This document shows, in pieces, positions 23,061-36,139 of a stretch of 64,000 bases of DNA; positions within the stretch are counted from its first letter, which is position 1, and each line of letters begins with the position of its first letter. The DNA is from Rhizobium sp. P32RR-XVIII (GTDB taxonomy: Bacteria > Pseudomonadota > Alphaproteobacteria > Rhizobiales > Rhizobiaceae), in assembly GCF_012641395.1 (NCBI RefSeq), contig NZ_JABAIH010000003.1, positions 620,001 to 684,000 on the forward strand, in the 5' to 3' direction. The translations under genes and the position numbers were made by a program. The notes under the pieces were generated by a model. It saw only the letters and a list, made by a program, of their open reading frames with translations. It ran no database searches and had not been told where the DNA came from.

Positions 23061-24554
23061 ATGTCTTTGAGATTTGCTACCGCTGCCGCATTCGTGATGG
23101 CTCTCATGGCCTCGACCGCCATGGCTCAGTCGCCCAAGGATATGCTGACCATCGATCTGCCGAACGATGCCGCGACACTCGATCCGCATCTACAGTGGAA
23201 CACTGACAGCTATTCGATCTACCGCAACATCTTCGACAACCTGCTGACCCGTGATGCCAAGGGCGAGATCGTGCCGCAGATTGCCAAGTCGTGGAAATAT
23301 CTCGACGACAAGACGATCGAGTTCCAGATCCGCGACGACGTTACCTTCCAGGACGGCTCGAAGCTGACCGCCGAAGACGTCGCCTTCTCGATCAACCGCA
23401 TCATCGATCCAAAGCTGAAGAGCCCGCAGCTCTCGCAGTTCGACCAGATCGACAAGGCGGAAGCCACCAGCCCGACCGTCGTCAAGATGACCACCAAGTC
23501 CGCCTATCCGGCGCTGCTCGCCCAGCTCGTCAAGCTGTCGATCGTGCCGAAGGCCTATGTCGAGAAGGTCGGTGACCAGGAATTCAACCTGAAGCCGCTT
23601 GGTTCCGGCCCCTATAAGATGGTCAACTGGCAGAAAGGCGTCCAGACCGAGCTTGAGGCCTATTCGAGCTACTGGCGCGCCAAGCCGCCATTCCAGCATG
23701 TCGTCTTCCGCACCGTGCCTGATGTCTCAACCCGCATCGCCGACCTCAAGACCGGCAAGGCCGACCTCATCCGCGAAGTGCCGCCGGATCAGGCCGAAAG
23801 CATCAAGAGCGACTCGAACTCGCAGGTTCTGTCGGTTCCGACCGAGCGCATCGGCTATCTCTTCATCAACGCCCAGGCCGGCGCCACCAAGGACGTCCGC
23901 GTCCGCGAGGCGATCGCCTATGCGATCGACCGCCAGGCGCTGGTCGATGCGCTGCTCGAAGGTTACGGCAAGGCGGTGGAAGTGCTCGGTGCCGAGCCGG
24001 TCTTCGGCTACACCGACAAGGTCAAGGGTTACGAGTACAATCTCGACAAGGCCAAGCAACTGGTGAAGGAGGCCGGCGCGGAAGGTGCCACCGTCGAATT
24101 CCTCACCTCTCCGGCCTATAGCCGCGCCACCGTTGAGGCCATCCAGCAGATGGTCAATGAGGCAGGTCTCAACGTCACCATCTCCTCCAGCGACCAGGCG
24201 ACCTTCCTGAAGCGCCGCCAGGGCGATCCAGCCAATGCTGGCGGCCTTGCCTTCGGCGCATGGTCCTGCGCCTGCCAGGACGTCGACGGCGTGATCTTCC
24301 CGCTGTTCCGCACCGGCAGCATCTGGGCGAAATATTCGAACCCGAAGTTCGATGAGGCCGTCGACAAGGCGCGCGCCATCCTCGACCAGAACGAGCGGCT
24401 GAAGCTCTACGAGCAGGCCTACCAGATCATCAAGGACGACGTTCCGGGCCTTGGCCTTTATCAGGCCTATGCGATCTATGGCGCAAACAAGCAGCTGAAG
24501 TGGCAGCCGACCGCCAACGAAGCGATGTTCGTCATGGACATGAGCTGGCAGTAA
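23061..24554 (+). CDS. ABC transporter substrate-binding protein, dipeptide/oligopeptide type
   Basis: A 497-residue SBP family 5 (DppA/OppA-like) protein. The signal peptide is SLRFATAAAFVMALMASTAMA, cleaved before QSPKDM. Mature landmarks are NDAATLDPHLQWNTDSYSIY, LTRDAKGEIVPQIAKSW, FQIRDDVTFQDGSKLTAEDV and GSGPYKMVNWQ. In the periplasm it should hand a peptide-like or opine-like ligand to the permeases encoded next. GAGAGGAA precedes the ATG. A Cys-containing segment (AWSCACQDVDG) near the C-terminus is unusual and might shape the binding pocket. Confidence 0.95.
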   Translation: MSLRFATAAAFVMALMASTAMAQSPKDMLTIDLPNDAATLDPHLQWNTDSYSIYRNIFDNLLTRDAKGEIVPQIAKSWKYLDDKTIEFQIRDDVTFQDGSKLTAEDVAFSINRIIDPKLKSPQLSQFDQIDKAEATSPTVVKMTTKSAYPALLAQLVKLSIVPKAYVEKVGDQEFNLKPLGSGPYKMVNWQKGVQTELEAYSSYWRAKPPFQHVVFRTVPDVSTRIADLKTGKADLIREVPPDQAESIKSDSNSQVLSVPTERIGYLFINAQAGATKDVRVREAIAYAIDRQALVDALLEGYGKAVEVLGAEPVFGYTDKVKGYEYNLDKAKQLVKEAGAEGATVEFLTSPAYSRATVEAIQQMVNEAGLNVTISSSDQATFLKRRQGDPANAGGLAFGAWSCACQDVDGVIFPLFRTGSIWAKYSNPKFDEAVDKARAILDQNERLKLYEQAYQIIKDDVPGLGLYQAYAIYGANKQLKWQPTANEAMFVMDMSWQ

Positions 24555-34472: not shown

Positions 34473-34758
34473 TGGTGCGTAAGCCAGACGGAAGGCGAGC
34501 GCCCGCGAAATCTCCCGAAATCTATCGATATCCGGATGCCGACCCACCGACCAGGTACCTGACCGCATTCGATCGGTTCAGGGCTTGAGCGGCTGCGATT
34601 TGGGCACTCCACAGCAGAGTGCCGCGTCTGGCGCATAACTGGCCTGATGCATTGTTCATGTCATGAGGCGGGCAAAACAACTATATACGTGACATCGAAC
34701 GACGCCGGAGCCAACTACGGTCGCTGACGTCAAACGGACCTCAGGAAAGGGGATCATC

Positions 34759-34905
34759 ATGAACGTCGCACGCTCCTTGAACAACTGGCGCAAGTATCGT
34801 CAGACTGTAGCCGAACTGGGTCGCATGACCAATCGCGAGTTGAGCGATCTAGGTATTGACCGCAGCGAAATTCGCAACGTTGCTCGCGCTGCCACTTCTC
34901 TCTGA
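34759..34905 (+). CDS. DUF1127 small protein
   Basis: A 48-residue protein: MNVARSLNNWRKYRQTVAEL, then GRMTNRELSDLGIDRSEIRN. The RELSDLGIDRSEI core is the DUF1127 (YjiS-like) signature, and the protein is Arg-rich. GGAAAGGGGAT upstream of the ATG at 34759 is a good ribosome-binding site. In Rhodobacter a DUF1127 protein (CcaF1) binds RNA and is co-expressed with CcsR RNAs. Here too a CCUCCUCCC hairpin RNA lies downstream (35075-35224), which makes an RNA-related role likely. It is followed directly by an intrinsic terminator. Confidence 0.9.
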   Translation: MNVARSLNNWRKYRQTVAELGRMTNRELSDLGIDRSEIRNVARAATSL

Positions 34906-34928
34906 GAGTGGTGTAAAGCATTTTGAGG

Positions 34929-34956
34929 CGCCCGCTCTTTAGCGGGCGTTTTGCGT
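34929..34956 (+). terminator. Intrinsic terminator after the DUF1127 gene
   Basis: The perfect 8-bp stem CGCCCGCT / AGCGGGCG with a 4-nt loop (CTTT) is followed by TTTTGCGTTT. This is a canonical Rho-independent terminator 24 nt past the DUF1127 stop. Read-through into the hairpin RNA downstream remains possible. Confidence 0.85.
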
Positions 34957-35005
34957 TTCAGTGGTAGAAGAAGTCCGCGCATCTGTCGCCGTCGCGAGAT
35001 GCATG

Positions 35006-35034
35006 TTTTGTGCATAGCTGCACTGCAGCATAAT
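35006..35034 (+). promoter_or_regulatory. Possible promoter of the hairpin RNA
   Basis: TTTTGT (35006-35011) and CATAAT (35029-35034) are separated by 17 bp and would place a transcript start near 35041, just ahead of the first hairpin. The match is weak at the -35 side. Confidence 0.3.
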
Positions 35035-35040
35035 CTCTTT

Positions 35041-35230
35041 CCAATGATCAGTATCAGCGTATGCTCGCGTACATCGAAGCCATGCACCTCCTCCCGCAGG
35101 GCTTCGTGGTTCAGACGCCCACTCCTCCTTCCAAGGGCGTCTGTCGGAACAGCGACACTCCTCCTCCCAGTCGCTGTTCGGTTCTTTTCGAAAGCCTGCC
35201 GCACCTCCTTCCGCGGCAGGCTTTCTCGTT
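35041..35230 (+). ncRNA. Four-hairpin anti-Shine-Dalgarno RNA (cuckoo / CcsR / alpha-r14-like)
   Basis: Four consecutive stem-loops each present a pyrimidine-rich anti-SD loop. Hairpin 1 has stem 35075-35081/35100-35106 with CCTCCTCCC at 35087-35095. Hairpin 2 has stem 35112-35120/35135-35143 with loop CTCCTCCTTCC. Hairpin 3 has stem 35149-35156/35170-35177 with CCTCCTCCC at 35160-35168. Hairpin 4 has a perfect 12-bp stem 35191-35202/35213-35224 with CCTCCTTCC at 35204-35212, and probably acts as terminator. Stems differ in sequence while loops are conserved, the sign of selection on the loops. Known relatives follow DUF1127 genes and tune carbon and stress metabolism by pairing with ribosome-binding sites or sequestering regulators. 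Transcript ends are inferred. Confidence 0.85.
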
Positions 35231-35284
35231 TCCGGAGGTCGCTTTCTATGGTCCGAGATCGAGTTGCGCCGGGCTCTTTCGCCG

Positions 35285-36139
35285 CTAGCGCGCGCTGTCA
35301 TTCTTGCCGATGATCTTACCGCGCAGCCAGGCGGAGGAAAGATCGATAACATAAACGACGGCAACGATCAGGAAGATGATCGTCCAGGCTTCCGGCCAGC
35401 GATAGGCAGCGATGCGATCCGCCAGCAGAAAGCCAATGCCGCCGGCGCCGACAATGCCGAGGACGGTGCCGGAGCGGGTGTTGGACTCGAAGTTATAGAG
35501 CATGATCGACAGGATCACCGGCATGGCCTGTGGCATGATGGCAAGCCGGATGGTCTGCAGCGGCCCGCCGCCCGAGGCCAGGACGCCATCGACGGGTTTG
35601 CGGGAGGTATTTTCGATCGCTTCCGAAAAGAGCTTGGCAAAGGTACCGATTTCGGAAACGGCAATGGCGAAGACGCCCGGAAGCGGGCCGAGGCCGAAGG
35701 CGCGGATGAAGATGAGCGCGAGTACGATCTGTTCGACAGCGCGTAGCGCATCGAACCCCCGGCGGGTCGATAGCCGCACCCAGCCGAGCGGCATGATGTT
35801 CTTGGCGCCAAGGAAGGCGAGCGGAAAGGCGACGATCGCGCCAAGCAGCGTTCCGAGGAAAGCCATCGAAATCGTCTGTCCCAGGCCGACAAGCACATCG
35901 CTCCATTCCTGCCAGGTCGTCCAGATATACGGCGGGAACATGAAGGAGAAGATCATGCCGAGCCGTGACAGGCCGTTCAGGATGCGCGCTGGTGAAATGT
36001 CGAAGAGATAGAGGCCGGCAATGAGCGGCAGGATAAGCGCCACCGCGCAGGCATAGCGCATCAGCCGCACGCGCGGCTCCACCGAGAAGGCGCCTGGAAC
36101 GCGCTGCCGCAGCTCGGAAAAGGAAGAGCTATCTATCAT
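35285..36139 (-). CDS. phnE2: Phosphonate ABC transporter permease (second PhnE)
   Basis: A 284-residue inner-membrane permease with about six helices. The coupling loop is GVLASGGGPLQTIRLAIMPQ, and the PhnE signature NFESNTRSGTVLGIVGAGGIG comes near the C-terminus. With PhnE1, PhnD and PhnC it imports phosphonates. It is the last gene of the locus, starting 4 bp after the phnE1 stop. It converges on the anti-SD RNA, whose fourth hairpin (35191-35224) may also terminate this transcript. Confidence 0.93.
   Translation of the reverse strand: MIDSSSFSELRQRVPGAFSVEPRVRLMRYACAVALILPLIAGLYLFDISPARILNGLSRLGMIFSFMFPPYIWTTWQEWSDVLVGLGQTISMAFLGTLLGAIVAFPLAFLGAKNIMPLGWVRLSTRRGFDALRAVEQIVLALIFIRAFGLGPLPGVFAIAVSEIGTFAKLFSEAIENTSRKPVDGVLASGGGPLQTIRLAIMPQAMPVILSIMLYNFESNTRSGTVLGIVGAGGIGFLLADRIAAYRWPEAWTIIFLIVAVVYVIDLSSAWLRGKIIGKNDSAR

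Follow-up and report, generated by a model that had tools for sequence, protein, structure and literature searches.

Reinkensmeier and Giegerich are said to have described the cuckoo RNAs and the CIN1 locus in 2015. As summarised in a citing passage, the CIN1 locus consists of a short DUF1127 gene beside CcsR-like RNAs and is frequent in alphaproteobacteria (PMC10253847). The same source describes CcaF1-CcsR1-4 of Rhodobacter sphaeroides as one precursor, transcribed from an RpoHI/RpoHII promoter (PMC10253847). SmelA099, published in 2011, is described as a four-hairpin RNA with variable stems and anti-Shine–Dalgarno (aSD) loops reading CCUCCUCCC; genomes are said to carry several copies of it, in fragmented synteny (PMC3927594). 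Of six αr14 copies in S. meliloti, one was reported to be reliably detected by Northern blot (PMC7143759). Each loop of the αr14 RNA NfeR1 can seed on a Shine–Dalgarno sequence, and the loops are redundant (PMC10746234, PMC7143759). Reported targets of NfeR1 are ABC-transporter mRNAs and ntrB, and its aSD loops silence the latter (PMC10746234).

NfeR1 is activated in S. meliloti by LsrB (PMC10746234). In A. tumefaciens, VtlR directly activates abcR1, vrsA and atu1667, and the published consensus is GCAT-N3-TG-N3-T (PMC7486931, also PMC8844928). The gene atu1667 has been called orthologous to Brucella genes (PMC7486931) that are listed elsewhere as DUF1127 genes under VtlR (PMC12595884). The Brucella VtlR targets are given as three DUF1127 genes and AbcR2, with the same binding consensus. 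A DUF1127 protein has also been reported to act on the kinase PhoR in Agrobacterium (PMC12501420). In the portions of the literature consulted, no locus joining a DUF1127 gene and an NfeR1-type RNA was found, and the 2015 cuckoo and 2021 CcaF1 papers may describe one. A search for VrsA as an ar14 RNA likewise found no such paper.

The locus compared here with these systems lies in a 64,000-nt stretch of DNA (the window) from the 7.19-Mb genome of Rhizobium sp. P32RR-XVIII (contig C33). Very probably, the window holds a copy of a DUF1127–αr14 unit that encodes a trans-acting small RNA and in which gene and RNA each have a terminator and, probably, a promoter of their own. The sequence supports the structure of the RNA, its family, the covariation of its stems, the conservation of the loops in relatives, the presence of a regulator consensus at both promoters and the change of neighbourhood between relatives.

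The protein-coding half is an ORF of 48 amino acids at 34759–34905 (+ strand), whose arginine-rich product matches PF06568 at 60.3 bits (Pfam gathering cut-off 23.3). Rhizobium miluonense, R. freirei and R. lusitanum are among its best protein matches (among the matches listed). Comparison with 11 relatives gave dN/dS ratios of 0.04–0.135 at dS values of 0.88–1.53, and, judged from these ratios, the protein is under strong constraint; the gene is intact. An intrinsic terminator with an 8-bp stem and a T-rich tail follows at 34929–34958 (+ strand). By our own criterion, DUF1127 has a terminator-like hairpin and a T-rich tail on its 3′ side in all 29 aligned cassettes, comprising the window and 28 relatives from the best 80 of at least 332 DUF1127 relatives; the terminator proposed in the initial annotation is thus borne out. 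In some relatives, the terminator loop is C/T-rich: it reads CCTCCTCCC at L016:4180, CTTCCTCCC in five loci and CTTCTCCC in L039, and such loops occur at aligned places in L017, L019, L020, L086, L091 and L039. It looks as though the DUF1127 terminator had been made from an RNA hairpin module.

Downstream of this terminator, four hairpins lie between 35075 and 35225 on the + strand. Hairpin 1 (35075–35106; 10 pairs) carries the loop ACCTCCTCCC, hairpin 2 (35112–35143; nine pairs) the loop ACTCCTCCTTCCAA, hairpin 3 (35147–35179; 10 pairs) the loop ACTCCTCCTCCCA and hairpin 4 (35190–35225; 13 pairs), which is probably also the terminator of the RNA, the loop ACCTCCTTCC. The motif CCTCCTYCC occurs in every loop, as CCTCCTCCC in hairpins 1 and 3 and as CCTCCTTCC in hairpins 2 and 4, in agreement with the initial description of four stem-loops with CCTCC-rich loops and an exact motif in the first and third. 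Across the whole window, hairpins of at least seven pairs with a CCTCCTYCC loop number four on the + strand and none on the − strand; in 200 dinucleotide-preserving shuffles of the + strand, there were 0.11 on average and never more than two. Similarly, four CCTCC-loop hairpins fall within 160 nt in the window, compared with at most two in any of 200 shuffles. The four-hairpin cluster is far above chance. The 190-nt fold has a z-score of −8.36, and none of 200 shuffles was as stable. A repeat search around the DUF1127–RNA unit returned nothing but the hairpins. Immediately 3′ of hairpin 4, the sequence is GCTTTTT in 27 of 27 relatives and GCTTTCT in the window, where the T-run is interrupted.

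A scan with the Rfam covariance models places the RNA in a known family. Positions 35106–35228 (+ strand) match the ar14 model (RF02344) at 100.1 bits, against a gathering cut-off of 58.8, over model positions 1–123 of 123; hairpin 1 lies outside this match except for its last base. Together with the PF06568 match, this upholds the earlier identification of a cuckoo/αr14-type aSD RNA adjoining a DUF1127 gene. Judged by model and motif, the RNA is a member of the αr14 (cuckoo) family of the four-hairpin, SmelA099 type. The αr14 loop motif CCUCCUCCC is exact in hairpins 1 and 3 and reads CCUCCUUCC in hairpins 2 and 4. With αr14 RNAs such as NfeR1/Smr14C2 of S. meliloti, the locus shares tandem hairpins with loops of the CCUCCUCCC type, variable stems, multicopy occurrence and a predicted LsrB-type site in front; it differs in having four hairpins rather than the three of the Rfam model, in its two U-variant loops and in lacking the TGCA-N6-GCAT spacing of NfeR1. 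The likeness to SmelA099, as far as its published description goes (PMC3927594), extends to four consecutive hairpins, aSD loops, variable stems (hairpin 4 hardly varies), the presence of several copies in one genome and a fragmented synteny, and no difference in kind was found. The trait known for CIN1/cuckoo loci from the citing passage (PMC10253847), a short DUF1127 gene adjoining a hairpin RNA of the CcsR-like kind, is present in the window.

The likeness to CcaF1-CcsR1-4 that the initial annotation had drawn holds in part. Both loci have a DUF1127 gene followed by hairpin RNAs, which in Rhodobacter are four small RNAs bearing CCUCCUCCC. However, the CcsR1 model (RF02791) scored 32.9 bits, below its gathering cut-off of 65.3, and the Rhodobacter RNAs are described as part of one precursor, whereas a terminator intervenes in the window. 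The proteins also differ in length (48 amino acids in the window, 71 for CcaF1). Of 199 family genomes, 184 carry ar14 over the cut-off (among the matches listed), and the Rhizobium genome itself has nine ar14 loci and six DUF1127 genes over the cut-offs; at three places, ar14 and a DUF1127 match are no more than 300 nt apart. At one place in this genome (G000:C22:797606-798532), an ar14 RNA lies upstream of two tandem DUF1127 genes, and a weak ar14-like match (28.6 bits) falls in between.

The stems of the RNA vary while pairing is kept, as had been claimed. Covariation was scored in an alignment of 27 relatives and the window; of the 28 relatives (from the best 80 of at least 332), L062, whose contig stops within the RNA, was omitted. 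In these 28 aligned cassettes, 17 of 42 pairs changed on both sides, compared with a mean of 8.0 in shuffled controls, and none of 500 shuffles scored as high. When the window structure was applied to the alignment, 93.4% of cells paired, and pairing fell to 38–52% when partners were slid by one to three columns; since the structure was taken from the window itself, this slid control favours the window structure. The covarying pairs are concentrated in hairpins 2 and 3 (13 of 17), and hairpin 4 shows hardly any variation. Two pairs of hairpin 1 fail, in 11 and 14 rows. One pair of hairpin 2 fails in 15 rows; the window row is gapped beside it, and RNAalifold pairs neighbouring columns.

Loop conservation, which the initial annotation had expected among relatives, was found in the relatives themselves, and the window deviates from it. 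All 108 loops of 27 relatives (from the best 80 of at least 332) read CTCCTCCC, as do 264 of 265 in a wider tally that takes in only clustered loops matching CTCCYYCC. Loops 2 and 4 of the window read CTCCTTCC, unlike those of the relatives. These variants lie at 35121–35134 and 35203–35212, and one other was seen among the 265 tallied loops, in L165.

The DUF1127 gene and the RNA seem, from the genomic comparisons, to stay together while their neighbours change. The 80 relatives examined, the best 80 of at least 332, were picked by DUF1127 likeness; the loop hairpins are downstream of the gene in 28 and upstream in 27, while 25 have them on neither side. In the downstream class, the hairpins lie 250–650 nt downstream of the DUF1127 start. 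By their upstream flanks, these 28 cassettes fall into 12 groups, none of which includes the window, or into 11 groups if L037 and L078, which have a common downstream flank, are merged; grouping used nucleotide similarity over ~3.3 kb on each side (less at contig ends) and may split diverged related sites. L034, L041, L043 and 24 other loci have aSD hairpins about 230–580 nt upstream of the DUF1127 gene, and all 27 of this upstream class belong to one conserved neighbourhood, a group of 31 among the best 80. Over the unit, no other copy exceeded 74% identity in 148 genomes of the genus, including its own (among the matches listed). The origin of the RNA from a stand-alone array apart from DUF1127 was considered and rejected, RNA identity being no lower to DUF1127-bearing loci: loci with a DUF1127 match in the stretch (n = 55) had a median identity of 87.6 and a maximum of 92.0, and those without (n = 20) a median of 86.7 and a maximum of 90.7, counts that include twice-counted places and short stretches that may miss an outlying DUF1127 gene.

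The window's own neighbours were not found beside the unit elsewhere. When six of its flanking proteins were searched, with flanks of up to 4 kb, they lay beside none of the 80 DUF1127 relatives (best 80 of at least 332). The phn genes of the window comprise two phnE genes, phnD, phnC and phnM. Among the matches listed, six genomes have this phn side, five at 88–90% identity and the sixth at 79%; the cassette is absent from all six phn loci, with no such hairpin in 18–19 kb on that side. Homology in these loci ends just past phnE, and they have no match to the left side of the window. In the window itself, this homology ends within 35229–35308, just 3′ of the RNA terminator. One of the six loci, L137, is neighboured by a PfkB-family kinase and by a trypsin/PDZ protein. 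The left neighbour has a homologue in 56 of 120 genomes of the genus (among the matches listed), and no hairpins were found beside the closest of them (G035, 84%; among the matches listed). Since the unit is preserved in changing neighbourhoods, its action is most likely exerted in trans rather than on the phn operon next to it.

Both halves of the cassette seem, from pattern matches, to carry the same regulator consensus. A predicted LsrB/VtlR-type site (GCAT-N3-TG-N3-T) lies before DUF1127 at 34633–34645 (+ strand) and another before the RNA at 35012–35024 (+ strand). The position of the first, about −126 relative to the start codon, is shared by 29 of 29 cassettes, and that of the second, about −63 relative to hairpin 1, by 24 of 29; the consensus is absent at the RNA in five of the 28 relatives (from the best 80 of at least 332). 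These loci have a background frequency of 0.047 per 160 nt. In the whole window, the consensus occurs 14 times compared with 9.6 expected, no more commonly than by chance, so that little can be read into any one match; it is the constancy of position among relatives that carries the argument. The site is found at 27 of 27 DUF1127 relatives with upstream hairpins and 18 of 25 without hairpins (best 80 of at least 332), and therefore goes with DUF1127 genes at large rather than being special to the cassette. A wider motif, TGCR-N6-GCAT, is absent from both window promoters. In relatives, it is found at 28 of 28 DUF1127 promoters, lies upstream of DUF1127 in 24 of 24 pattern-caught loci (of 25; L124 was missed), and occurs at 12 of 28 RNA promoters, or 16 of 28 with GYAT. 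The missing wider motif might imply that the window promoters have lost the LsrB site, but the published GCAT-N3-TG-N3-T is intact in both.

A probable −10 element of DUF1127, CTATAT, lies at 34681–34686 (+ strand), in a column where TATAT is conserved; CTATAT is described as an alphaproteobacterial −10 element (PMC10746234, PMC8844928). A possible −10 of the RNA, TATGCT, lies at 35060–35065 (+ strand), where a conserved TAT column stands 13–15 nt 5′ of hairpin 1, and the RNA would be expected to start near 35071. A plain sigma-70 scan of the window promoters gave no match. The aligned cassettes contain a conserved block, which includes the LsrB/VtlR consensus, between the DUF1127 terminator and hairpin 1. 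Given this block and the terminator present in all 29 cassettes, the RNA is very likely transcribed from a promoter of its own, and the earlier proposal of a separately promoted RNA gains support. The genome also has a candidate regulator locus, in which a disulphide-oxidoreductase gene is followed by a LysR gene, a tandem pair of AbcR-type RNAs (suhB model) and an ArsR-type gene, the order published for trxB-vtlR-abcR1-abcR2-arsR, with an LsrB/VtlR consensus before the RNA pair. The likeness to atu1667, abcR1 and vrsA of A. tumefaciens lies in the same consensus before a DUF1127-type gene and a small RNA; the difference is that protein and RNA are described there as separate loci and form one cassette in the window.

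By analogy, the RNA would most likely act like NfeR1, in trans. The LysR-type regulator LsrB/VtlR would activate both promoters, with LsrB binding predicted in the window, and the exposed C/U-rich loops would pair redundantly with the Shine–Dalgarno regions of many mRNAs, blocking translation. The DUF1127 protein, under the same regulator, would act either in RNA maturation or turnover, as CcaF1 does, or on a sensor kinase, as in Agrobacterium. When 14 gene starts in the window were compared with 3000 random 36-mers per loop, those of DUF1127 and the gene at 23061 alone reached the best 5%, and did so with loop 2 only. No phn start was in the best 5% of random stretches, the phnC and phnM starts having been placed by eye. 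A more specific reading, which we consider unlikely, makes the locus a portable protein–RNA module of the LsrB/VtlR regulon in which the U changes of window loops 2 and 4 direct part of the RNA to the GGAAAGGGG site of DUF1127, giving a self-limiting loop. It derives from one duplex calculation, in which pairing with the DUF1127 ribosome site was stronger for the U-variant loops: loops 2 and 4 gave −12.4 and −10.7 kcal/mol, and loops 1 and 3 gave −8.1 and −9.2 kcal/mol.

Three other explanations have to be weighed against a DUF1127–αr14 unit acting in trans. DUF1127 and the RNA might be co-transcribed, with RNase E freeing the RNA, and both the identical gene order and domain and the known CcaF1-CcsR precursor (PMC10253847) speak for such an arrangement. 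It is nevertheless quite improbable, given the terminator-like hairpin 3′ of DUF1127 in 29 of 29 cassettes, the conserved block with its own LsrB/VtlR consensus before hairpin 1, the sub-threshold CcsR1 score and the six of nine ar14 loci in the same genome that have no nearby DUF1127 match. The initial annotation had also suggested nearby operons as targets. Regulation of the flanking phn or acyl-compound operons has in its favour an adjacency seen in this genome only; since none of the 80 DUF1127 loci (best 80 of at least 332) shares the window's neighbours and the six phn loci elsewhere (among the matches listed) are without the cassette, local targeting is unsupported. With no phn start in the best 5%, counting the phnC and phnM starts placed by eye, it can hardly be right.

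More serious is the possibility that the window copy, as one of nine ar14 loci, is redundant and decaying, with its promoter, its terminator and the identity of its loops being lost. Changes are seen in two of the four loops, the wider LsrB motif is missing at both promoters, the T-run after hairpin 4 that is intact in 27 of 27 relatives is interrupted, identity over the unit is at most 74% for any other copy in the 148 genus genomes (among the matches listed), and the S. meliloti family offers a precedent in which one of six copies was reliably detected (PMC7143759). On the other hand, all four stems pair, both promoters retain the core LsrB/VtlR consensus and DUF1127 is intact at dN/dS 0.04–0.135, although the distances are too large to reveal recent relaxation. 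On balance, decay is possible but rather doubtful, an estimate that overlaps with the preferred explanation, which concerns what the unit is. To judge from these sequence changes, the window copy of the DUF1127–αr14 unit may be weakly expressed or decaying.

The family, the loop mechanism and the association with DUF1127 are already published, and the pair in the window is one more copy; the locus itself is therefore ordinary. What is newly added seems, from the comparisons made here, to be the LsrB/VtlR consensus common to both halves and the keeping of the pair through many neighbourhoods. The common consensus may matter, as it would join the work on VtlR and DUF1127/AbcR in Brucella and Agrobacterium with that on LsrB and NfeR1 in Sinorhizobium. 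A cassette with such a common consensus also bears on whether DUF1127 proteins act on RNA, as CcaF1 does, or on proteins, as with PhoR.
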